A stretch of DNA of 27,363 nucleotides from Candidatus Poribacteria bacterium (GCA_016215705.1 JACRIR010000170.1:1-27363); one strand, 5' to 3'; shown: positions 10,314-23,291, counted from the first letter of the stretch. Made by a program: numbers and translations. Notes: generated by a model from the letters alone, not told the origin.

Positions 10314-11264
10314 TCATACTTGAGAAGCTGCTAAGCCCGTTCTTTTCTCATACCATACCAGCGCTGTCTTCAGTTTGAACCCGGCCCTCTTGTACAGCGA
10401 GCAGGCCGCCTCGTTTTGACAATCCACGGTCAGTTCAACGGTTTGAAGGCCTCTGCCCGCCAAATATTTCAAGCCGGACCACAAGACAGACCTTCCCAAG
10501 CCCCGGCCGCGAAACTCCGGCACAATGCCCATCATGTGGATTCGGCCAACTACTTCGCCGGTCTTGCCGTCCGGCCGGTGTACTTTCGCGGTCCAGCAGT
10601 AACCGGCGGCATCTTCTCCGTAATACGTCAATATGACGCCATTATGGCCGTAGCCACATGTATTCAACTGTTGGAAAATCTCAGATGTCGTATTTGGACA
10701 AAACCCCCAGGATTCACCGAAGGCGCGGTTCTGAAGCAGGGTGAATTCCGTCTCAGCGCCCGGTTCGAGTGGTCGATGGGACAGACCTATATACTTTGAT
10801 TCAACAACCAGGGCAGGCCAAAGTTCCAGCCTCATCTCTGCATACCGGCGGACCGGCCTGAATTCTAAATCGGCGAACAAATTACGGGCGGCCCGGTCGT
10901 TTTCTCTCAGGTCCGCATGCACTATTGCCGCTTTGAGATCGCTGGCCCTCTTGATTGCCGAACGGAGTAAGCCGGCCGTAACTCTCCGGCCAAGAAAACC
11001 GGGCCTGACCAACAGCCTCAACACTGCGCGGCCAATGGCCAACTCCGGGATCACCCGACATGCGCCGACAATTCTCCCTTGTTCCTCAGCCAAGAATAGA
11101 TTCTCTCCGGAAAAATCGGTGGGTTTCAGCGACTCGCCTGTAAGCCAACCGAGCAGGAACGTATCAACTGACCCGCAGATGGATTCGGCCTCTGCATGCA
11201 ATCGGACATATTGACCCAAGTCAGCCGAACAATAATTTCTTATTACGCAGGAATCGCTATCCAT
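10314..11264 (-). CDS. Tandem-GNAT N-acetyltransferase (MshD-like architecture)
   Basis: A 316-residue protein with two GNAT folds. The N-terminal domain (about 1-150) keeps a degenerate acetyl-CoA loop (LLVRPGFLGRRVTAGLL). The C-terminal domain (about 160-305) has an intact motif A (GIVPEFRGRGLGRSVL) and a typical motif B (NEAACSLYKRAGFK). This two-domain layout, with one active and one degenerate domain, is that of mycothiol synthase MshD and related enzymes, but the substrate cannot be assigned. It is the last gene of the minus-strand run, 23 bp after the TIGR03084-type gene. The start lacks a clear Shine-Dalgarno site, so a later start is possible. Confidence 0.8.
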   Translation of the reverse strand: MDSDSCVIRNYCSADLGQYVRLHAEAESICGSVDTFLLGWLTGESLKPTDFSGENLFLAEEQGRIVGACRVIPELAIGRAVLRLLVRPGFLGRRVTAGLLRSAIKRASDLKAAIVHADLRENDRAARNLFADLEFRPVRRYAEMRLELWPALVVESKYIGLSHRPLEPGAETEFTLLQNRAFGESWGFCPNTTSEIFQQLNTCGYGHNGVILTYYGEDAAGYCWTAKVHRPDGKTGEVVGRIHMMGIVPEFRGRGLGRSVLWSGLKYLAGRGLQTVELTVDCQNEAACSLYKRAGFKLKTALVWYEKRTGLAASQV

Positions 11265-11287
11265 CGGTCACGCCATAGACGAAAAGG

Positions 11288-12085
11288 TCAGTCTTTCCCT
11301 TGCACAACCCGCTCACCGGGTTTGGGGCCGTTTGTCGCAGGACCGGCAAAGCATTGGGCCTTAAGCATCCAGTCGCGCGCCGTTTCTCCGACGACTTCGA
11401 GCCGGGTGTCATCCACATGCCGCCTTTGCGCCACCACCAGGCAGAAACCTTCTGCCGGGCCGCTTATCTTGTCTGACGCATCTTCCGGTCCCCATGTCCA
11501 AAGGTTTCCGGACGGAGCAGTGAGTTCCACGCGTACTCGTGTTTTGGGGACCTCCAAGCCACGGTTTGTGTAACTCCAGCCGAATGTGGTTACACCGAGG
11601 TGGGCGATGTGGCGCAGGCGATCGGTGTTTATGCGCTTTAGACGGAGGGCGTCAAACACATCCTGGCCGTGAGCCCATGTCTCCATCAACCGCGCCGTGG
11701 CGTGAGACAGGGCGCTCATGGGCGGTCCATACCACGGCAGCCGATCTTTCGGACCGATGGCCGCATATGCCTCTACCAACCTTTTCCGTTCTCTTCTCCA
11801 CCAGCCCATCAGTTCCGGAATAGGCATATCCTTGCCGACACCTTCGAGCTTTTTCATGAATGCATCGATGTCGCTCACAACTTCTTCAATGTGTTTACCA
11901 AACATATCCGGCGCAGTCGCCGAAAGCGCAGCCCGATCGTCAAAGTACGCCAGATGGCGGATTTGGTCTTTGATGTTCCATGGGCGTGAAGGGGTCATGG
12001 TCATCCATCTCTCTTCTTCCAGATTCGCCACGACGGCGTCCAAAGCCTCATGTTCAGCTCTTAGATCCTCGCAGATCTGCTCCAT
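11288..12085 (-). CDS. TIGR03084-type DinB/MDMPI-like metal-binding protein
   Basis: A 265-residue protein of the DinB / mycothiol-dependent maleylpyruvate isomerase N-terminal fold, a four-helix bundle binding a metal through three histidines. Likely ligands are H44 (QIRHLAYFDD), H128 (LSHATARLMETW) and H139 (AHGQDVFDAL). The text DLRAEHEALDAVVANL at the start and WSYTNRGLEVP near residue 175 match what I recall of the TIGR03084 family, which often sits in acyl-CoA catabolic clusters. No biochemical role is established for it. GGGAGG precedes the ATG, and the leader contains the repeated GGTTCA module also found before other genes here. It may carry out a thiol- or metal-dependent step on a pathway intermediate. 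That is inference. Confidence 0.82.
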   Translation of the reverse strand: MEQICEDLRAEHEALDAVVANLEEERWMTMTPSRPWNIKDQIRHLAYFDDRAALSATAPDMFGKHIEEVVSDIDAFMKKLEGVGKDMPIPELMGWWRRERKRLVEAYAAIGPKDRLPWYGPPMSALSHATARLMETWAHGQDVFDALRLKRINTDRLRHIAHLGVTTFGWSYTNRGLEVPKTRVRVELTAPSGNLWTWGPEDASDKISGPAEGFCLVVAQRRHVDDTRLEVVGETARDWMLKAQCFAGPATNGPKPGERVVQGKD

Positions 12086-13191: not shown

Positions 13192-14556
13192 TTACTCTTC
13201 ATCGTCATCATCGTCATCCGGAACGAATTTCTTGATATACCCGGTATGAATATCTCCTCGCTGGAATGCGGGATCATCGAGAATCTTCAGATGCAAGGGA
13301 ATTGTCGTTTTTACCGGCCGGATTACAAACTCGTCGAGAGCTTTCCTTAGAACGCGAATAGCTCCGTCTCTTGTGAGATCGTACCCGATGAGTTTGGCCA
13401 CGAGGGAATCATAATATATTGGGAGATCGTATCCCTGGTAGAGGTGCGTATCCAGTCTGATGCCGGAGCCGCCAGGAGGACTGTACTCCTTAACAATCCC
13501 GGGAGAAGGCAGAAAGTTAAGGTCCGGATTCTCAGCGTTGATCCGGCACTCGATGGCCCAACCTTTCAGACGAATGTCGTCGAAACTGTATTCCAGTCTT
13601 CCGCCATCGGCCAGCCGAATCTGTTCCTTGACCAGGTCCACGCCGGTGACCATCTCCGTGACCGGGTGCTCCACCTGGATGCGAGCATTGATCTCCATGA
13701 AGTAGAAGTTGCCTTCCCGATCAAGCAAGAATTCAACCGTGCCTGCATTCAAATAGTTCACGGCCTTTGCCGCTCTAATGGCGGCCTGGCCCATTGCCTT
13801 CCTCAGTTCCGGCCTCATGGCCGGAGAGGGCGCCTCTTCGATCAATTTTTGATAACGTCGCTGAATCGAGCATTCCCGTTCACCCAGATGGATGACGTTA
13901 CCGAATTTGTCGGCCAGAACCTGAAACTCAATGTGCCTCGGGTTCACCAGGCATTTCTCAATATACAGCGAGTCGTCGCCGAAAGCCGCCTTCACTTCCG
14001 CTTTGGCCACGGCGAACTCTTCCCTTAGAGTATCTTCATCCGGGCAGATGCGAATGCCGCGCCCGCCGCCGCCGGCCGAGGCTTTGACCATCACCGGATA
14101 GCCTATTTCAGAAGAGAATGCAACCGCTTCATTAATCGATCCCACCCCGCCGGGACTTGATGGAACAATGGGAACCCCGGTCCGGTTAACAACCTCCTTG
14201 GCCATGATCTTATCGCCGGCCAGATACAGGCTTTCCGGCGTCGGACCGATGAAGACGAGGCCGGCGTCCTTGCAGGCGCGGGCAAAGTCTCCGTTTTCGG
14301 CAAGATAGCCGTAGCCGGGATGAATCGCTTCCGCACCCGTTTTCCTTGCTGCTTTGATAACGGCCTCTATGTCCAGATAACTACGCGCGCTTATGGCGGG
14401 TCCGATGCAGACGCTCTCGTCGGCACGGCTAACGTGCAAGCTGTCCGTATCAGCCTCGGAATACACGGCCACACTGCGCAACCCCAGGTCTCTTACCGCA
14501 CGTATGACTCTGACGGCGATCTCGCCTCTATTGGCTATCAATATCTTGGATAACAT
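13192..14556 (-). CDS. accC: Biotin carboxylase subunit of an acyl-CoA carboxylase
   Basis: Carboxylates biotin on the carrier protein with ATP and bicarbonate. The 454-residue length equals free-standing AccC. It contains the N-terminal KILIANRGEIAVRVIRA, the ATP-grasp glycine loop KASAGGGGRG (about 159-168) and EINARIQVEHPVTE. E288, N290 and R292 fall at the same numbers as the catalytic residues of E. coli AccC. No biotin-carrier domain is fused, which fits the separate BCCP gene 126 bp upstream. The protein ends in an acidic tail (six Asp and two Glu), an unusual extension. AGGA lies just before the ATG. Its neighbours are two CT subunits, so it probably serves the catabolic carboxylase here. 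A shared role in fatty-acid synthesis cannot be excluded. Confidence 0.96.
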   Translation of the reverse strand: MLSKILIANRGEIAVRVIRAVRDLGLRSVAVYSEADTDSLHVSRADESVCIGPAISARSYLDIEAVIKAARKTGAEAIHPGYGYLAENGDFARACKDAGLVFIGPTPESLYLAGDKIMAKEVVNRTGVPIVPSSPGGVGSINEAVAFSSEIGYPVMVKASAGGGGRGIRICPDEDTLREEFAVAKAEVKAAFGDDSLYIEKCLVNPRHIEFQVLADKFGNVIHLGERECSIQRRYQKLIEEAPSPAMRPELRKAMGQAAIRAAKAVNYLNAGTVEFLLDREGNFYFMEINARIQVEHPVTEMVTGVDLVKEQIRLADGGRLEYSFDDIRLKGWAIECRINAENPDLNFLPSPGIVKEYSPPGGSGIRLDTHLYQGYDLPIYYDSLVAKLIGYDLTRDGAIRVLRKALDEFVIRPVKTTIPLHLKILDDPAFQRGDIHTGYIKKFVPDDDDDDEE

Positions 14557-14682: not shown

Positions 14683-14931
14683 TCATAGGGTCTCAATAAC
14701 GAGTATTAGATCCCCGTCCGCCAACGGCGATTCATTCTCTGCGACGATCTCGGCGATCTTGCCGTCCGCCGGCGCTTTGATCTTCTGATAGACCTTCATT
14801 GTTTCAAGTAGGGCAAGAACCTGCTTCTTCTTGACTACATTGCCCACTTCAACGTATGCCGGCTGATCGGGCGCCGGCCTTCTATAAAACACTCCGGACA
14901 TTGGCGCTCTCACTTCGATTCTCTTGCTCAA
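14683..14931 (-). CDS. Free-standing biotin carboxyl carrier protein
   Basis: An 82-residue biotinyl/lipoyl domain protein that carries carboxybiotin between the biotin carboxylase and the carboxyltransferase. The biotinylation motif is ETMKVYQ, with K46 as the predicted modified lysine. Most BCCPs have AMKM or AMKV, so Thr before Met is a variant. The opening APMSGVFYRRPAP resembles the thumb-containing AccB type. The best start is TTG at 14931: AGGAGG lies 9 bases upstream and no in-frame ATG precedes the domain. An out-of-frame ATG lies at 14936-14938. The leader carries the AACCGAG repeat module. No biotin ligase gene is in the window. Confidence 0.93.
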   Translation of the reverse strand: MSKRIEVRAPMSGVFYRRPAPDQPAYVEVGNVVKKKQVLALLETMKVYQKIKAPADGKIAEIVAENESPLADGDLILVIETL

Positions 14932-15027: not shown

Positions 15028-15813
15028 CTAACGCCCCTTCCATATTGGCTCGCGTTTCTCCATAAACGCTGCGATGCCTTCCATCAAGTCCTCGACCTGG
15101 GTGTTAATGGTCAGTTGTGAATGAAGAAAAACAAGAGCGTCATCCATGGCCATGTCCGCAACCCGGTAGAAGGAGGATTTGCCGAGCCCCATCACGGCCG
15201 GACTGTATGATGACAGCTTCCGGGCCATCTCCGCGACCTTTTCCCGGAATAAGTCCTTGGGCACACAATAGTTGATCATGCCGATGCGCTCCGCCTCGGC
15301 CGCCGGGATACGGTCTCCGGTCATGCACAATTCGATCGCCTTTTTCCGGCCCACGTTGCGGATGAGCACGGCCGTTACCATGTAAGGCCAGAGGCCGCGC
15401 TTAATCTCCGGCACGCCGAACTGAGCATTCTCACTGGCGATGACCACGTCGCTTGACAGGCAGAGCCCCATCCCTCCAGCCAGGCAGTAGCCCTCGATGG
15501 CGGCCAGGATCGGCTTCCTGCATTTGTTCATCTTAACCAGAAGGTCGGCGAAATGCTTCCGGTCATTGTGCATGTCAAGAAAGGATTGTTCCGTTGTGAA
15601 ACTGCCGCCCAGGTCTGCGCCCGAGCAAAAATTGCCCCCCGCGCCGGTCAGAACGATTGCCGATACGCCGGGGTCAGCCCCGGCCTGATCGAAAAATTGG
15701 TTCAGCCCTGCCAGCACGTTGGGATTGAGTGAATTACGCCGCTCAGGCCGATTAAGAGTAATGGTTGACACTTTGTCCTTGACGTCGTAAAGGACCTCCT
15801 GGTTTTCACTCAT
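15028..15813 (-). CDS. Enoyl-CoA hydratase/isomerase family protein (crotonase 1)
   Basis: A 261-residue crotonase-fold protein acting on an acyl-CoA. The oxyanion-hole segments are NFCSGADLGG (about 61-70) and YCLAGGMGLCLSSD (about 109-122). Compared with rat enoyl-CoA hydratase, the first catalytic glutamate (E144, in the CEL motif) is glycine (G116), and the second (E164) is kept as E136 in VPEIKRGLWP. From memory, this pattern with RGL-P downstream resembles the LiuC/AtuE hydratases that act on carboxylated branched enoyl-CoAs, which fits the neighbouring carboxylase. An isomerase or decarboxylase is also possible. The start is ATG at 15813, with AGGAG 8 bases upstream; an upstream in-frame ATG at 15870 adds 19 residues without support. 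Confidence 0.9.
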   Translation of the reverse strand: MSENQEVLYDVKDKVSTITLNRPERRNSLNPNVLAGLNQFFDQAGADPGVSAIVLTGAGGNFCSGADLGGSFTTEQSFLDMHNDRKHFADLLVKMNKCRKPILAAIEGYCLAGGMGLCLSSDVVIASENAQFGVPEIKRGLWPYMVTAVLIRNVGRKKAIELCMTGDRIPAAEAERIGMINYCVPKDLFREKVAEMARKLSSYSPAVMGLGKSSFYRVADMAMDDALVFLHSQLTINTQVEDLMEGIAAFMEKREPIWKGR

Positions 15814-15853
15814 CTTCATCTCTCCTCTTAAGAAAGTAGATTTGCCGGCAATT

Positions 15854-15893
15854 CCCATCCCAAACCCCAAACTGCAAAACCCTCAAACCCCCC
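15854..15893 (-). other. G-run cluster on the transcribed-sense strand of the BKACE/crotonase-1 junction
   Basis: On the minus strand, runs of 6, 3, 4, 3 and 3 guanines lie within 40 bases around the BKACE stop codon, separated by T-rich linkers; one linker is 11 nt. This could fold as a G-quadruplex in the mRNA just ahead of the crotonase-1 start. It may also be a degenerate GGTTT repeat with no function. Confidence 0.35.
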
Positions 15894-16755
15894 TTGCGGT
15901 ACCCAGAATACGGCGCGCTTCCTCAGCCGTGGCGATCTCCCTGCCGACTTCGCGCGTGATCTTGGCCAGGGCTTCGACCAGTTCCCCATTGCTTCGGGCT
16001 TTCTCGCCGCTTGGCAGATAGAACGTGTCCTCCAACCCGGTGCGCACGTTGCCGCCTTCTGCCAGAGCTTTTCGCTGAAGGTCCCACACTTCTTTCCGAC
16101 CGACACAGATTACCTGCCAGTGAGAGCCGGGCAGCATTTCGTTCTTCAAGAGTGGCACCCATTCCGGCTTGGCCGGCTGGCCACTGGCTACACCCATTAC
16201 CAACGATATGTGCGGGTCCCCCTGGAACATGCCGGCCTTCTTGAATAAGGCCACACTGCGAACGATGCCGGAATCGAAGCACTCGAACTCGGGAACGATG
16301 TCGTTGGCAGTCATAACGTCCAGAAAGGCCTGGACCTTTTCCACCGGATTATCGAAAGCCATAGGCGGCCATGCCCATGTGCCGTCTTCCTTGAGCTTGA
16401 GATAGTTCAAAGACCCGGCGTTGCATGCGGCCATCTCAGGCTTCACCGCCTGGAGGCACGCCACCGGTCCGGAAATGTCGGGCCCGACTACGCCGGTGCT
16501 CTGGTTTATGATTATCTCAGGCACTCGAGCTTTGATGGCATCAATGATTGATTTGACAACCCCGACGTCCCAGGTGGGATATGCGCCCATCCCCGGCCTC
16601 TGGTCACGGAAATGGCAGTGCACGATAGTGGCCCCCTGATTCCATGCCTGCTCAGCCGCATCGGCCATTTCCTCGGGCGTGACCGGGATGTTGCCCATAT
16701 TGGGATTGGTCAGCACACCGGTAAGGGCGCAAGTCAGTATGGCTTTGTCACTCAT
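15883..16755 (-). CDS. Beta-keto acid cleavage enzyme (BKACE, DUF849 family)
   Basis: A TIM-barrel zinc enzyme of 290 residues. BKACE proteins, including 3-keto-5-aminohexanoate cleavage enzyme (Kce), condense a beta-keto acid with acetyl-CoA to give acetoacetate and a shortened acyl-CoA. Visible motifs are TCALTG at the N-terminus, zinc ligands H46 and H48 in IVHCHFRD, the STG loop near residue 86, EFECFDSG near 156 and RTGLEDTFYLP near 238 with E242 as the likely third ligand. The substrate class depends on side-chain residues I cannot judge. Here it could perform the C-C cleavage that ends the carboxylation route. AGGAG precedes the ATG. The 359-bp leader contains a perfect hairpin (16868-16914) and repeats. 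Confidence 0.94.
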   Translation of the reverse strand: MSDKAILTCALTGVLTNPNMGNIPVTPEEMADAAEQAWNQGATIVHCHFRDQRPGMGAYPTWDVGVVKSIIDAIKARVPEIIINQSTGVVGPDISGPVACLQAVKPEMAACNAGSLNYLKLKEDGTWAWPPMAFDNPVEKVQAFLDVMTANDIVPEFECFDSGIVRSVALFKKAGMFQGDPHISLVMGVASGQPAKPEWVPLLKNEMLPGSHWQVICVGRKEVWDLQRKALAEGGNVRTGLEDTFYLPSGEKARSNGELVEALAKITREVGREIATAEEARRILGTARGV

Positions 16756-17114
16756 GCGATATCTCCTGAAAAACTCGGTTCATGGTTTAGGGTTCATGGT
16801 TCATGGTTGAATCCCAAAGAAACTGAACACTTATGTCATTCCCTCGCCGAGAAACCGGCGACTGTTTCCTTTAATTCGGGGACACCATGCGGCATGGTGT
16901 CCCCGAATTAAAGGCTGTTCTCTTCACAATTAATTATGCTAGAGGCGTGATCAGGCGCTCCTAAGAAAATAGGTTTACAGTTCACGGTTCACGGTTTACG
17001 GTTGAGAGGAAAAAGACGGTTTCAGGTTTCAAGCTTCAGGTTTCAGATTAAATCCATATTTTCTTCCATAATCAATCCCTAACCAGGAACCAGATACCCC
17101 GCGCCTTGCGCGGC
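16756..17114. other. 359-bp repeat-filled spacer between CT1 and BKACE
   Basis: No gene seen. Read plus-strand left to right it holds: the BKACE ribosome site and AACCGAG module (opposite strand), GGTTCATGG reiterations, TGTCATTCCC text, a perfect hairpin (16868-16914), an AT-rich stretch and an orphan copy of the TTTCTTAGGAG/AACC module near 16958-16980. Its order parallels the spacer at 18672-19064. Confidence 0.7.
16868..16914. repeat. Perfect 22-bp inverted repeat of the GGGGACAC family
   Basis: CCTTTAATTCGGGGACACC-ATG, loop CGG, then the exact reverse complement ending AATTAAAGG. The 22-bp arms have no mismatch. It lies in the leader of the BKACE gene, about 115 bp upstream of its start. 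No T-run follows. REP-like element; compare 8065-8109 and 18866-18910. Confidence 0.9.
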
Positions 17115-18671
17115 TCAAGTCGGAGAAGACCCGTGTTTCTTGGCTCTGGGCGGCCGCTTCTCCGCTTTGTTTCTGACAATATCCAGAGCTTCGATGATTC
17201 TCTTCCGCGTATCTTTCGGTTCAATGATCTCGTCGACCACCTGGGCAGTCCATGAGTGAGCCGCGTCAAAGACGTCCACTTTCTCGCGGGACCGGTTCAA
17301 ATAGGCTTCATACGCATCTTCCTCGATCCCTTTCCCGTAAACCTCCTTATAGTTCAACTCGGAAGCCTCAGTCGCGAACCGGGCAATGGGCCATGCATAG
17401 GTCACGTCCGCGCCCAGCCCTTTCAGGCCGCTCAAAATCATGCTGCCGGAATCGGAGTACGCCTCACGCAGGACCACGCCGATCTTCGGGATGGTCGCCG
17501 TGGCATAGACATCGACAATCTTGCCGATATGCCGGAGCAACCCTCGAGTTTCCTCTTTCTCGCCGGGAACCGCGGCCGGCGTGTCCACAAGGTTGACCAA
17601 CGGTGTATTGTAGGCGTCCAGCGCTTGCAGGAAGCGGTAGTATTTGTCACAAGCATTGACTTCGTAAATGCTGCGGTCCTCAACCGGATTATTGGCCACG
17701 AGGCCGACCACTTCACCGTTAAAGCGACAGTATCCGGTGATTAGTTGTTTTGCGTATTCGTTCTTGATCTCAAAGAAATCCCCGCCATCAACTATTTCTC
17801 GAATGACGTCGTGCATATCATATTTCTGCTCGAATTCGCCAGGCACGATATCAAGCAGTCTCCCCACTTCTCGTTTGGCGTCGTCGGTCCGCCCCCAGGC
17901 AAGCGGTTTTTCGCGATAATTCTGAGGCAAGTATCGGAGCAGTTCGCGGCAGGCCAAAATGGTTTCTTTATCGCCGGCGCCTACCAGGTCGCACGTGCCG
18001 CTCAACTGCATGTGATAGTCGGCTCCGCCCACGTTGCGATCGATCTTCTCGGAAGTGGCCGCAGCGGTCTGGCGCGGCCCACCCAGCCACAGATTGCCTG
18101 ACACCCGACTGATGAACAGGAAATCGCACAATGTCGGAATATAAGCGCCTCCGGCAATGCAAGGACCCATCAACACCGTAATCTGGGGCATGACACCCGA
18201 GTAAATGGACTGGATGCGAAACATCCAATCTATGCCGGCCTGGGCCACTTCACGATATCCCAGCCTGCCACCCGAGGAATCCAGAAGGTTAACAAGGGGG
18301 ATGCCCCACGTCGCCGACAATTCCAAAGAACGGGCATATTTCATAAGATGTTGTTGACCGGTCGATCCGCCCAACACGGTGAAGTCCGAGGCATAAATCA
18401 TGGCGGTGCGGCCATGAACCTTGGCCGTTCCCAAAACGGCTCCGTCGCAGGGCGCATCCGTAAAGCGGCCGTCAATGCGGGTTCCGGTAGTGTTTACACA
18501 AGAACCCAACTCGCTGAAGGAGCCTGCGTCTATGAGGATTTCGATCCTTTCTCGCGCGGTCAACTTGCCGCGGCCGTGCTGCCGCTCAATATGCTCAATG
18601 CCGCCGCCAAGTTGATTCTTCTTTTGTATTTCGCGATATCGGTTGATCGCTTCTTCCATTCGTTTGCCCAT
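17115..18671 (-). CDS. Acyl-CoA carboxylase carboxyltransferase subunit (CT1), acyl-CoA-site type
   Basis: A 518-residue PccB/MccB-like carboxyltransferase with N- and C-terminal crotonase-like domains. The start LGGGIEHIERQHGRGKLTARERI is typical of the family. The N-domain oxyanion motif GPCIAGGAYIPT (about 169-180) is intact and close to the MCC-beta form. The C-domain motif, normally RKAFGGAYxVMGSK and contacting biotin, is AYSDSGSMILSG (about 404-415), and the canonical RHGAK reads RHIGK. The biotin side therefore looks degenerate. The adjacent CT2 has the reverse pattern, so the two probably form one hetero-oligomeric enzyme. AGGAG lies 11 bases before the ATG. With the biotin carboxylase and BCCP it makes a four-subunit acyl-CoA carboxylase of unknown substrate. 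Confidence 0.93.
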   Translation of the reverse strand: MGKRMEEAINRYREIQKKNQLGGGIEHIERQHGRGKLTARERIEILIDAGSFSELGSCVNTTGTRIDGRFTDAPCDGAVLGTAKVHGRTAMIYASDFTVLGGSTGQQHLMKYARSLELSATWGIPLVNLLDSSGGRLGYREVAQAGIDWMFRIQSIYSGVMPQITVLMGPCIAGGAYIPTLCDFLFISRVSGNLWLGGPRQTAAATSEKIDRNVGGADYHMQLSGTCDLVGAGDKETILACRELLRYLPQNYREKPLAWGRTDDAKREVGRLLDIVPGEFEQKYDMHDVIREIVDGGDFFEIKNEYAKQLITGYCRFNGEVVGLVANNPVEDRSIYEVNACDKYYRFLQALDAYNTPLVNLVDTPAAVPGEKEETRGLLRHIGKIVDVYATATIPKIGVVLREAYSDSGSMILSGLKGLGADVTYAWPIARFATEASELNYKEVYGKGIEEDAYEAYLNRSREKVDVFDAAHSWTAQVVDEIIEPKDTRKRIIEALDIVRNKAEKRPPRAKKHGSSPT

Positions 18672-18759
18672 GTCTCAATAATCTCCTGAGAAAGCAGGTT
18701 CGCAGCCCACAGTTCACGGTTTACGGTTGAATCACGGAGCAGCACAGCCGCAACCAAGC

Positions 18760-18837
18760 AAAGAAGAAAAAGTTTGGATCACGAATTACATGAATACAAC
18801 TTCCTGAGTGTCATTCCCGCGAAAGCGGGAATCCATT
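18760..18837 (+). repeat. Left arm of 78-bp inverted repeats flanking CT2
   Basis: By eye this matches the reverse complement of 20721-20798 with six mismatches in 78 bp, including an exact 31-base start (AAAGAAG through CACGAATTACA). It contains a small TTCCCGC/GCGGGAA palindrome. Partly related text occurs at 23010-23080. Confidence 0.85.
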
Positions 18838-18865
18838 CCTGAGATGGAAAACCATCGACTGATTC

Positions 18866-18910
18866 CCTTAGTTCGGGGACAGCATGTGGCATGGTGTCCC
18901 CGAATTAAGG
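18866..18910. repeat. GGGGACAC-family hairpin in the CT2/CT1 spacer
   Basis: CCTTAGTTCGGGGACAGCATG, loop TGG, then a reverse-complement arm ending AATTAAGG. The 21-bp arms have two mismatches. It is the close sister of 16868-16914; the flanking text after both (AATTAA, then a TC-rich stretch and CACAATTAA) is also shared. Confidence 0.88.
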
Positions 18911-19064
18911 GCTCTTTCTCCCACAATTAACAACGCCCAAACGTGTTCATGCGCCGCTAAGAAACCCTCCTCTTTCCCCCCTTTACAAAAGTCACCATTG
19001 TCCCCCCTTAATTCTTTCACCTTTCCCCTTCCGGCAGGGGGGAGGGGGGATTTCTCCCCTATAC

Positions 19065-20615
19065 TCATGCCGGCTTAATGTAGCGTCTCTTATCCGGCGT
19101 TTCTTCTCGTTTGTCGGCCGACGCGCGCAGCGCCTTGACGATCCGCGAACGCGAGTCCCTGGGGTCGATGACCTCATGCACTGTATACCAATGCGTGAAT
19201 ATCTTACCCATCGTCATGACACTGAACATCTCGCGAAGAATACTCACGTAAAACTCGAACAGTTCATTATAGTTGCCCTCTTCCTTGGCCTTGGCCAGCT
19301 CCTTGTGGAACACGGCGTGGACCATCATCTCCGGGCCGGTAGGCGCGAACTCGGTCGTCGGCCATCCGTAAATAAAATCCGGCCCCATCTTGCTGGCGCC
19401 CATGACGATGTTGGAACCACCGTAAGACCTGCGCAGCACAAGGGTCACCTTTTGTGTCGTCAGGTTGGAATAGCCGTGCAGATTCTTGGCGCCGTGGCGG
19501 ATGACTCCCATGCGCTCCCACCGGTCGCCGGGAGGAAACGCCGTGGTGTCGGACATGGTCAGCAACGGAATATTAAAGCAATCGAGGAACATCAGGAAGC
19601 GATCATATTTGTCGGAGGAGTCCGGTTCCATGATGCCGCTTAATTCATCAGGATTGTTGGCGGCGATACCCGTAACCATGCCGTCAAACCGCGCGAAGCC
19701 GATAACCATGTTGGGGGCAAAGTCCCCTTGAAGCTCGAAGAATTTCCCATCATCCACAATCAGATCGATGATCTCGTGGACGTCATACGTGAACCGAACC
19801 TGATTGGGCATCACATCGAGCAGGGCCTCTTCCCGCCGATTAGGATCGTCGGCGGACTCGATTGCCTTCGGCCGCTCCCAGCAGTTCTGAGGCATGAACT
19901 CCAGGAGCTGCTTACAGAGGTCAATAGCCTCCTCGTCGCTGCCGGCCATCAAATGACACTGGCCGGATTTCGTCATGTGGAAATCGGCCGAGCCCGCATC
20001 TTCAGACTCGATCGGACCCCCTAACCATAAGAACCCTGTCTTGCTGTTCATAATCAGGAAATCCGACAACACCGGGACCTTCGCCATCGGCCCCGTGCAC
20101 GGCCCCAATACCAGAGCGATTCGAGGAACTATTCCGGAGTAAAGGCAGTAATTCTTTAGCACACGCGCAATGCCGTGTTGGCCGACGAATCCCTTTTTCA
20201 TGCTGACACGACTTCCGGCGGAATCGAAGATTCCAATAAGAGGCATCTGTTCCTGCCCGGCCATCTGAGCCAATTCGGCGATCTTCCACACGCCTTGGTC
20301 GCCGAAAGAGCCCGACATGACCGTGAAATCCATGGAATACACCATCACCTGTCGGCCGTTCACCTTGGCCATACCCATGATCACGCCGTCTCCGGGACTC
20401 GGTTTATCGCTGGACTCCTGAGGCGGCCGAAACTCCCGGACGACAGAACCGATTTCCTCGAAAGTGCCCGCGTCGGCCAACCTCTCGATTCGTTCCCGCG
20501 CTGTGAGCTTGCCCAGACTATGCTGCAAGGCCACCCTGTCAGGCCCACCGGCCGCAAGATTCTCCTGTCGACACGTTTCCAACTTCGCCAGATACCCGTC
20601 CATCCACTCGCCCAC
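19065..20615 (-). CDS. Acyl-CoA carboxylase carboxyltransferase subunit (CT2), biotin-site type
   Basis: A 516-residue carboxyltransferase paralogous to CT1 (shared SLGKLTARERIERLADAGTF, YDVHEIIDLIVDDGKFFE and similar). The N-domain motif, normally GPCAGGAVYSP, is GPCTGPMAKVPV (about 171-182), losing the paired glycines that hold the acyl-CoA thioester. The C-domain biotin motif is kept: RRSYGGSNIVMGASK (about 395-409) after RHGAKNLHGYS. This is the mirror image of CT1. The first oxyanion loss makes a functional homo-oligomer doubtful; hetero-oligomerisation with CT1 is the simplest reading. The start is GTG at 20615: AGGAGA lies 8 bases upstream. The ATG four codons later is an alternative. 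The gene lies between 78-bp inverted repeats. Confidence 0.92.
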   Translation of the reverse strand: MGEWMDGYLAKLETCRQENLAAGGPDRVALQHSLGKLTARERIERLADAGTFEEIGSVVREFRPPQESSDKPSPGDGVIMGMAKVNGRQVMVYSMDFTVMSGSFGDQGVWKIAELAQMAGQEQMPLIGIFDSAGSRVSMKKGFVGQHGIARVLKNYCLYSGIVPRIALVLGPCTGPMAKVPVLSDFLIMNSKTGFLWLGGPIESEDAGSADFHMTKSGQCHLMAGSDEEAIDLCKQLLEFMPQNCWERPKAIESADDPNRREEALLDVMPNQVRFTYDVHEIIDLIVDDGKFFELQGDFAPNMVIGFARFDGMVTGIAANNPDELSGIMEPDSSDKYDRFLMFLDCFNIPLLTMSDTTAFPPGDRWERMGVIRHGAKNLHGYSNLTTQKVTLVLRRSYGGSNIVMGASKMGPDFIYGWPTTEFAPTGPEMMVHAVFHKELAKAKEEGNYNELFEFYVSILREMFSVMTMGKIFTHWYTVHEVIDPRDSRSRIVKALRASADKREETPDKRRYIKPA

Positions 20616-20720
20616 TCTAACTATCTCCTTTCGTTGAATCTTCTTTGACTCTGAATCATCCGGGAAGCGCGCCTCCTGGTCTTGAATGTCTATACAACCA
20701 TAGACGACTCATAGTCCTGA

Positions 20721-20798
20721 AATGGATTCCCGCCTTCGCGGGAATGACACCCAGGAGTGTGTATTCGTGTAATTCGTGATCCAAACTTTTTCTTCTTT
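20721..20798 (-). repeat. Right arm of 78-bp inverted repeats flanking CT2
   Basis: Reverse complement of 18760-18837 with six mismatches by eye. A 1.88-kb segment holding the whole CT2 gene lies between the arms. Confidence 0.85.
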
Positions 20799-20989
20799 GG
20801 TTGTGGGCTACGCCGTGCTGTGGATTCCCAACTTCTTCTTTTCCCCTTCTTCTCCCCAAATCCGCGCTAATCAGTGTAAATCAGTGGATCCAGTTCCTTT
20901 TCTTCTTCCCGATTTTCTTAGTGTTCCTTCCTGCTTCTTCGTGCGCCTTCGTGGATTATATATCTTTTTGTTGCTTCTTCTTCTTCTCC

Positions 20990-21099: not shown

Positions 21100-22662
21100 T
21101 CAGTGAACCATTCTGTCCTTGCCTGCCCAATATTTCTCACGAAGCACGCGCTTTAGCACTTTTCCGCTGGGGTTTCTGGGAAGCGATTCCACAAACTCGA
21201 CGCTCTTCGGCTTCTTGTACCCCGCGAGATTCGCCTTACAGTGAGCGATCAAGTCCTGCTCCGCACATGTGGCGCCCGGTCTCAACACCACCAGCGCTTT
21301 CACGCTCTCACCCCACTCTTCATCGGGCACGCCGATGACTGCCGCGTCGAGCACTGCGGGGTGCGCGAACAGAACATCCTCAATCTCGCGAGGGTATATG
21401 TTCGAGCCACCGCTGATTATCATGTCTTTCTTCCTATCGACGATATAAATAAATCCTTCACCATCTACTGTCGCGAGGTCACCCGTGTACACCCTGCCGT
21501 CCTTGAGCACTTCCGCTGTGGCCTCGGGCCACTTCCAGTAGCCCTTCATGACGCACGCCCCTTTCGCCGTAATCTCGCCCACCTCTCCCGGCTTCACGTC
21601 CCGGCCGTTCTCATTAAGAATGCGCACGCCCACCTCGGGCAAGCCCTTCCCGCACGAACCCAATCGGCGCGTTTTCTCCTTCGGACCATCAACAACATGG
21701 TCGGCCTCAAACAAGATGGCCAGCAACCCTCCCTCGGTGCACGCATAATCTTGAATGAAGATCGGGCCAATCTTTTCAATTGCCCTCTTCACGAGTTCCG
21801 GCGGCATAGGTGAGCCGCCGTAAGTAATCCTCTTGAGGCTGGACAAGTCATATTTGCCGAAATCAGGACTGTTCAAAATAAAATTGATGATCGCGGGCAC
21901 AAGATGGACATCAGTAATTTTTTCTCTCTGTATAGTTTCGAGAACCCCGGCAGGGGTGAAACGGCGGAGAATGACAGTTGTGCTCCCCATGTATGAACAG
22001 GCGAGGTCCCAGCCTCCACCGCCGAACGAATAGAACGGAGTGACTACCAGCGAACGGGTGTCTTCGTCTATTGCGAGGCGGCTGGCCGCAAGGTCAATCA
22101 CGGCAGTTATGCTGCCGTGAGTGTGCATCGCCCCCTTGGGTAGGCCCGTCGTGCCGCTGGTATATAGCAGCCAGAGCATATCTTCAGCCGACGGCAGAGA
22201 ATCCGGTGGTTCCGCCGCGCCCTTTCCGACCAACTCTTCATAATCAAGGAAACCGGCCGCTTGAGTCTGGATGCCGATGAGAAATCGAATGGTCTTGAAG
22301 CGCTCTCTTGCGGAACTGATGATCTGTGAATACTCATCGGATACAAGAAGCGCTTTCGACTCGGAGTCATTTAGTATGCATTCGATTTCACGAGGCGCCA
22401 GACGGTAGTTCACCGGAACGATCATGAACCCGCCCAAAGCCGCCGCCCAGAACAGTTCACGATACTGAAAACAGTTCTGGGAAAGGATAGCGACATGATC
22501 TCCCTTCTGCAGCCCTATTTCCCGAAGCGCATTCACGAGCCTATACACACGATTAAGAAGCTGTCCAAATGTGAATTCGTTCTGCTCATATTTGACCGCA
22601 AGTTTGTCAGGATTCTTTTCGGCAACCTCGATCAGCCTTTGCGCTATGAGCTTCTTTTCCAT
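21100..22662 (-). CDS. AMP-forming acyl-CoA synthetase
   Basis: ANL-superfamily ligase of 520 residues that activates a carboxylic acid with ATP and CoA. The phosphate-binding loop is LYTSGTTGLPKG (about 167-178). The A5 region reads YACTEGG, the A7/A8 region is YTGDLATVDGEGFIYIVDRKKDMIISGG, and the adenylation lysine is K501 in NPSGKVLKR. There is no signal peptide. It probably makes the CoA ester that enters the cluster's pathway; chain type cannot be told. I prefer ATG at 22662, because GGGGAG lies about 6 bases upstream. An upstream ATG at 22677 adds five residues. It follows the oxidoreductase gene after a 629-bp repeat-rich spacer, which may contain another promoter. Confidence 0.94.
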   Translation of the reverse strand: MEKKLIAQRLIEVAEKNPDKLAVKYEQNEFTFGQLLNRVYRLVNALREIGLQKGDHVAILSQNCFQYRELFWAAALGGFMIVPVNYRLAPREIECILNDSESKALLVSDEYSQIISSARERFKTIRFLIGIQTQAAGFLDYEELVGKGAAEPPDSLPSAEDMLWLLYTSGTTGLPKGAMHTHGSITAVIDLAASRLAIDEDTRSLVVTPFYSFGGGGWDLACSYMGSTTVILRRFTPAGVLETIQREKITDVHLVPAIINFILNSPDFGKYDLSSLKRITYGGSPMPPELVKRAIEKIGPIFIQDYACTEGGLLAILFEADHVVDGPKEKTRRLGSCGKGLPEVGVRILNENGRDVKPGEVGEITAKGACVMKGYWKWPEATAEVLKDGRVYTGDLATVDGEGFIYIVDRKKDMIISGGSNIYPREIEDVLFAHPAVLDAAVIGVPDEEWGESVKALVVLRPGATCAEQDLIAHCKANLAGYKKPKSVEFVESLPRNPSGKVLKRVLREKYWAGKDRMVH

Positions 22663-22736
22663 CGTTTCTCCCCCCATCCCTGTCTGTGCGCGAATGACAT
22701 TGAGCGGTTTTCATTCATACAGTTCGTCCCGCGCCT

Positions 22737-22764: not shown

Positions 22765-22932
22765 TGCATTGCTCACTGTCAATTTCTTGAATTTGCGTCG
22801 TGATTTCCTTTTGTTTTCCCTGAAATCTGCGTAAATCAGTCCAAATTGGTGAACTTCTTTATTCGTAATTCGTGATATAATTCGTGATCCGTGATCCAAC
22901 TCTTTTTCTTTTCTTTCTTCTTCTTCCTCCCT

Positions 22933-22967
22933 GAATCTGTGCAAATCAGCGAAATCTGCGGATTCCT
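22933..22967 (+). repeat. GAATCTGTG...CTGCGGATTCCT dispersed repeat, copy 2
   Basis: 35 bp with three differences from 20990-21024. It sits upstream (minus-strand sense) of the acyl-CoA synthetase gene. Confidence 0.7.
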
Positions 22968-23291
22968 CTTCTTTTTGGTTGCGGCTTTGCTGCGCCGTGT
23001 AACTCATTGTTCTGAAATGGATTCCTATATTCGTGTAGTTCGCATAATTCGTGTAATTCGTGATCCAACTCTTCTTCTTTCTCCTCTTCCAAAATCAAAA
23101 TCTTTGTGCCTTGGTGACTTGGTGGTAATGCTCTTCGCTAATCCGTGTGAATCCGTGGTTGCATGCTTCTTCTTTTTCTTCGTACCCTCGTATCCCTGTG
23201 GTGAATTCTTTTCGTTGTCTTGGTTGCGGCTCCGCCGCACGGTGTGCATCTGTGGTGAGAGATGTTTCCTTTTCTTCTTCTTTCCTTACGC

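Follow-up and report, generated by a model that had tools for sequence, protein, structure and literature searches.

The CT1 and CT2 subunits

The window analysed here, a stretch of 27,363 nucleotides from Candidatus Poribacteria bacterium (GCA_016215705.1 JACRIR010000170.1:1-27363), contains on its minus strand two neighbouring genes for full-length carboxyltransferase subunits of the PccB type, termed CT2 (19065..20615, 516 amino acids, GTG start) and CT1 (17115..18671, 518 amino acids). Both proteins belong to the Carboxyl_trans family PF01039 (E 9e-98 for CT1 and 1.3e-110 for CT2), covering the whole profile with scores of 328 and 371 bits against a curated cut-off of 22.3. At 428 and 422 bits, they fall below the NCBIfam cut-off of 998.8 for TIGR01117, the alpha subunit of methylmalonyl-CoA decarboxylase (mmdA). 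The two are 39% identical to one another. The nearest solved structure to CT2 by sequence is 1vrg (E 4e-113), to which its predicted monomer model, with a predicted local distance difference test (pLDDT) score of 88.2, aligns with a VIA-align Z of 45.9. CT1 is nearest to 1x0u (E 4e-109), and its monomer model (pLDDT 86.5) aligns to 1on3 with a Z of 43.0.

A preliminary description of the locus had proposed that the two subunits have lost opposite halves of the active site, CT1 through a degenerate C-domain biotin motif and CT2 through loss of the N-domain glycines. Every motif that it quoted translates exactly at its position on the minus strand, and the differences go beyond chance, being fixed or nearly so in 40 homologues of CT1 and 41 of CT2. 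Motifs and indels were counted over these two sets and compared with 76 other carboxyltransferase homologues (the references), mostly PccB-like and classed by sequence.

The alterations in CT2 fall in its N-domain. In the motif GPCTGPMAKVPV (20070..20105, minus strand) the second glycine of the GG pair is replaced. Proline, found in 34 of 41 CT2 homologues, is ruled out as a universal marker of the family, valine or leucine taking its place in the other 7. Stronger, and missed by the preliminary description, is a deletion at 19992..20033 (minus strand), where FLWLGG runs directly into PIESEDAG. Ten residues of a helix with the pattern GPxVIxxxTxE are gone from all 41 CT2 sequences and kept in all 76 references and all 40 CT1 sequences; without exception, the segment measures 20 residues in the references, 19 in CT1 and 10 in CT2. 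In CT1 the helix is retained as GPRQTAAATSEK (18045..18080, minus strand) and occupies residues 198-206 of the predicted model, whereas no helix is predicted there for CT2. The crotonase fold suggests, by analogy, that the deleted helix lines the acyl-CoA pocket. The C-domain of CT2 is intact, as had been claimed: RRSYGGSNIVMGASK (19389..19433, minus strand) has the canonical length and glycines, and RHGAK (19485..19499, minus strand) an invariant GAK, in all 41 homologues.

In CT1 it is the C-domain that has changed. Its N-domain motif, GPCIAGGAYIPT (18132-18167, minus strand), is of the Ala-Gly form, AG standing for the GG pair as it does in a long-chain-type sequence (L130) and a sequence like methylcrotonyl-CoA carboxylase (MCC; L146) from the reference set. 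In the C-domain, LREAYSDSGSMILSG (17427..17471, minus strand) combines a changed lysine with a lengthened loop; the motif quoted earlier from this site was AYSDSGSMILSG (17427-17462, minus strand), and the lysine change, another of the stronger features, went unremarked. The lysine of RKxY is present in 76 of 76 references, and is arginine in all 41 CT2 and glutamate or glutamine in all 40 CT1 sequences. The loop from the tyrosine of RKxY to the tryptophan of AWP is two residues longer in CT1: it counts 22 residues in all 40 sequences, against 20 in each of the 41 CT2 sequences and in 72 of the 76 references; in other carboxyltransferase homologues it is sometimes one residue longer, and the exact placement of the two residues inserted in CT1 is ambiguous in the alignment. 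The lengthened loop is itself strongly conserved, with the consensus AY[AGS]D[AST]G. Where the canonical motif is RHGAK, CT1 reads RHIGK (17520-17534, minus strand), and the GA is kept in none of the 40 CT1 and in all 41 CT2 sequences.

The two indels, fixed throughout both families and lying in opposite domains, are firm evidence of complementary divergence between CT1 and CT2. Together with the crossover in conservation described below, they put the claim of domain-specific change on a stronger footing than the motifs from which it was first drawn.

Paired occurrence, origin and constraint

CT1 and CT2 occur together. A scan for CT2 across 84,980 species genomes returned 26 close relatives at 68-81% identity, the next match down being at 38%, and at all 26 loci CT1 adjoins CT2 on the same strand and in the same order. 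A search of 12 whole genomes with CT1 likewise found CT2 adjacent in every one. Two CT1/CT2 pairs are present in Desulfatibacillum alkenivorans DSM 16219. These (L123, which is G003:C4, and L020) are 68-69% and 59-62% identical to the pair in the window, and each has its own biotin carrier gene nearby. Among 395 sampled genomes of the Desulfobacterota, the phylum of D. alkenivorans, CT1 was detected in 19 and CT2 in 19 at a strict threshold, the two lists differing by one genome each way. The apparently lone CT1 (in G106) is ruled out because CT2 there is truncated by a contig end, and the apparently lone CT2 (in G125) because CT2 is frameshifted and CT1 lies off the contig end; a second pair in G060, seemingly single, is likewise accounted for by contig end or frameshift. 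Thus, 20 of the 395 genomes carry both genes, 375 carry neither and none carries one alone, and the side-by-side co-occurrence that the preliminary description had suggested looking for is borne out. The CT2 copies at L151 (in G125) and L025 are frameshifted, with an internal TGA in G125, and may represent assembly errors or pseudogenes. In the phylum of the window's own organism, three genomes were searched, one of which lacked CT1 at the strict threshold.

When the sequences are analysed by maximum likelihood together with 24 further carboxyltransferases, the CT1 clade, the CT2 clade and the clade that joins them as sisters each receive support of 100/100. The joint clade sits beside PccB-like sequences and away from L146, the sole MCC-like sequence included, and its internal branching is similar on the two sides. 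An arrangement with CT1 beside PccB and CT2 outside was rejected in a constrained tree (approximately unbiased test, p-AU 0.0002), long branches being the remaining caveat on the tree. Trees made separately from the N-domains and the C-domains recover the same grouping, so that no domain swap is needed. As the trees indicate, CT1 and CT2 stem from a PccB-type gene that duplicated once and were inherited jointly thereafter, in agreement with the origin proposed earlier.

If only the interface between the CT1 N-domain and the CT2 C-domain were catalytic, stronger constraint would be expected on these two domains. Column conservation was compared over 38 paired loci. Invariant columns make up 31% of the N-domain and 22% of the C-domain in CT1 (p 0.02), against 20% and 32% in CT2 (p 0.002), while in PccB, used as a control, they are nearly flat at 22% and 18%; the p-values are indicative, since columns are partly dependent and the sequences related. 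The interaction of family with domain in entropy is 0.32 bits (95% confidence interval 0.12-0.52), with the CT2 C-domain ranking first in conservation among the four domains. Within-clade tree depth is 0.80 for the CT2 N-domain and 0.39 for its C-domain, an approximately twofold difference, and 0.57 and 0.48 for the corresponding domains of CT1.

Gene neighbourhood

The pair lies in a run of minus-strand genes which, in order of transcription, encode an acyl-CoA synthetase (21100..22677; PF00501, E 6e-82), CT2, CT1, a BKACE-family beta-keto acid cleavage enzyme (15883..16755; PF05853, E 2e-82), a protein of the enoyl-CoA hydratase/isomerase family (15028..15870; PF00378, E 1e-57), a stand-alone biotin carrier protein of 82 amino acids with the motif ETMKV (14683..14931; PF00364, E 1e-17) and a stand-alone biotin carboxylase of the AccC type, without a carrier domain (13192..14556; TIGR00514, E 7e-202, over the NCBIfam cut-off). 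The cluster therefore holds both the biotin carboxylase and the biotin carrier that characterise a biotin-dependent acyl-CoA carboxylase, and one or both of these genes lie beside the pair in more than half of related loci. In its relatives, the genes found repeatedly around the pair are those for BKACE, enoyl-CoA hydratase, biotin carrier, biotin carboxylase, acyl-CoA dehydrogenases and a TetR regulator, a BKACE-family gene being present at 18 loci of the related set; the window's own BKACE-family enzyme scores under every NCBIfam BKACE cut-off.

Judging by the neighbouring genes for acyl-CoA synthetase, acyl-CoA dehydrogenase, enoyl-CoA hydratase and BKACE, the carboxylase belongs to acyl-CoA catabolism, and the linkage of BKACE and a hydratase to an acyl-CoA carboxylase suggests a catabolic route that has yet to be described. 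Carboxylation of a 3-methyl-2-enoyl-CoA followed by hydration and BKACE cleavage was considered; it is compatible with the neighbours, which lend it no specific support. In several relatives, divergent acyl-CoA dehydrogenase genes adjoin as pairs near the carboxylase (for example L007:15286-17832), an arrangement resembling that of heteromeric acyl-CoA dehydrogenases.

The genome of the window encodes three further carboxyltransferases elsewhere. Two of them outscore CT1 and CT2 on the Pfam family model, while the third and a biotin carboxylase occupy a single reading frame.

Dispersed direct and palindromic repeats are packed into the spaces separating the acyl-CoA synthetase, CT2, CT1 and BKACE genes. 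They fill the intergenic stretches 16760-17010, 18680-18930, 20700-20805 and 22880-23190 and include a perfect palindrome (16868-16914) whose arms are 23 nucleotides long. Between CT2 and CT1, many relatives have a spacing of only about 20-30 bp. The region 10314-12085, past the carboxylase genes, encodes an acetyltransferase resembling mycothiol synthase, whose score is under the cut-off, and a member of the mycothiol-dependent isomerase family (TIGR03084). It is chiefly from Actinobacteria that mycothiol systems are known.

Relation to known carboxylases and proposed assembly

The CT1/CT2 pair is a new form of PccB-type acyl-CoA carboxylase. With PccB, the 12S transcarboxylase and MmdA (all PF01039), it has in common the crotonase-type fold with both domains at full length; identity over the entire chain is 35-39%, and the VIA-align Z scores are 43-46. 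Those enzymes, however, build a homohexamer from one subunit with both half-sites intact, so that all six sites are equal, whereas here two paralogues always occur together and bear fixed lesions that complement each other. Neither CT1 nor CT2 has both half-sites intact, as a self-sufficient subunit of this kind would, because CT2 lacks the N-domain helix and CT1 has the C-loop insertion and the lysine replacement in every homologue. The label ‘propionyl-CoA / methylmalonyl-CoA carboxyltransferase’ would mislead for either gene by itself. The lineage of MCC and geranyl-CoA carboxylase is distinguished by an extended helix at the N terminus, some 30 residues long (PMC4673880); by their predicted helix positions, the CT1 and CT2 models open with a helix at residues 3-21 and a second at 25-33.

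In the AccA/AccD acetyl-CoA carboxylase of the E. coli type, as in the arrangement proposed here, the acyl-CoA and biotin sides are on different polypeptides and there is one class of site. AccA and AccD are, however, separate single-domain subunits, whereas CT1 and CT2, at 516-518 amino acids, retain both domains. In the split enzyme, the site is divided in this N/C manner, with acyl-CoA mainly on one partner and carboxybiotin on the other (PMC5534430). The MdcD-MdcE heterodimer of malonate decarboxylase is similar in that crotonase-fold partners have unequal roles at one interface (PMC5534430), but it is biotin-independent and acts on malonyl-ACP. In mycobacteria, AccD4 and AccD5 interact in a mixed carboxyltransferase complex, so that the long-chain acyl-CoA carboxylase also unites two full-length paralogues (PMC4347857; 9t97 and 9yx entries). 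In the open-access papers searched, no complementary loss of active-site features is reported for these, which on the published descriptions would set them apart from CT1 and CT2. No AccE-like subunit turned up here, although no search aimed at AccE was made. A description of such a half-altered carboxyltransferase pair was not found in the open-access literature, subscription papers not being covered.

It is probable that the pair forms an obligate heterohexamer, and with it one acyl-CoA carboxylase, in which the CT1 N-domain and CT2 C-domain make up the sole catalytic interface. Each active site of the fold lies between the N-domain of one subunit, on the acyl-CoA side, and the C-domain of its partner, on the carboxybiotin side; CT1 would supply the former and CT2 the latter. 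The altered halves are the opposite ones: the CT2 N-domain, through loss of the helix that follows the oxyanion strand and the change of GG to GP, GV or GL, and the CT1 C-domain, through the insertion of two residues into the oxyanion loop, the change of lysine to glutamate or glutamine and the loss of GA from RHGAK. The simplest assembly would be (CT1)3(CT2)3, each dimer having one competent CT1-N/CT2-C site and one vestigial or repurposed CT2-N/CT1-C site, while a complete canonical site would be absent from either homohexamer. The biotin carboxylase and the 82-residue carrier encoded close by would provide the carboxybiotin. As the fixed damage is on opposite sides and the genes are found only paired, the enzyme probably needs both subunits, with half of its sites working. 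A more specific proposal seems to us evenly poised: a (CT1)3(CT2)3 core with exactly three of its six sites catalytic, which arose by duplication and reciprocal half-site loss, survives as an intermediate between homohexameric PccB and AccA/AccD and puts the vestigial site to some other use.

Several observations weigh against a single active interface. The glycine aligned with the oxyanion glycine is retained in the CT1 C-domain in all 40 homologues, after the two-residue insertion, and since this domain is also well conserved, its site may be active or repurposed. Variants of both RHGAK and the GG pair are found in other carboxyltransferase homologues and so are ruled out as proof of inactivity; RHxGK by itself is no sign of it, as the long-chain type reads RHFSR there. 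The evidence does not bear out an outright loss of the CT1 C-domain motif; the loop is longer and RHGAK reads RHIGK, with the oxyanion glycine in place. Retention of reference-conserved residues, a cruder measure, shifts in the same direction as the column test, weakly: it is 0.91 in CT1 and 0.86 in CT2 for the N-domain, and 0.74 and 0.80 for the C-domain, the loss being greater in both C-domains than in the N-domains.

The next-best explanation, so rated because the changed loop of CT1 is conserved (with its glycine in 40 of 40), is that the heteromer is obligate and both classes of interface are functional but specialised, CT2-N/CT1-C serving, for example, for regulatory acyl-CoA binding, a smaller substrate or a second carboxyl transfer. 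Conservation of the altered domains is only moderately below that of the intact ones, unlike the outcome of unconstrained decay. This alternative nevertheless appears unlikely, given that the helix missing from the CT2 N-domain is found in every reference, an invariant lysine of the CT1 C-domain has been swapped with a change of charge, and the CT2 N-domain has evolved about twice as fast as its C-domain. That one subunit, for instance CT2, is mainly a scaffolding pseudo-subunit and the other a catalytic homomer is considerably less probable still: unequal mixed complexes do exist, AccD5 and AccD4 chains standing at 24:12 in long-chain acyl-CoA carboxylase entries, but a pure scaffold would have no need of the canonical motifs kept in the CT2 C-domain, nor of such strong conservation. 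Least credible is a pair of independent homohexameric carboxylases with different substrates, sharing the biotin carboxylase and carrier. The full-length two-domain fold of both proteins would allow it, but CT1 and CT2 are never apart in the 395 genomes and 26 loci, and each alone would miss one canonical half-site at every interface.

Obligate heteromers are thought to arise after a homomer's subunit has been duplicated, once each copy has lost a feature that the other still provides. To our knowledge, there are few clear natural cases in which the lesions lie on opposite halves of one active site. The hypothesis put forward for CT1 and CT2 is directly testable, because there is an intact outgroup, about 40 or more sequences are available for each member, the two indels are clean and D. 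alkenivorans is a cultured host. Nature thus provides, in this pair, a way to examine how an enzyme made of one protein comes to require two.

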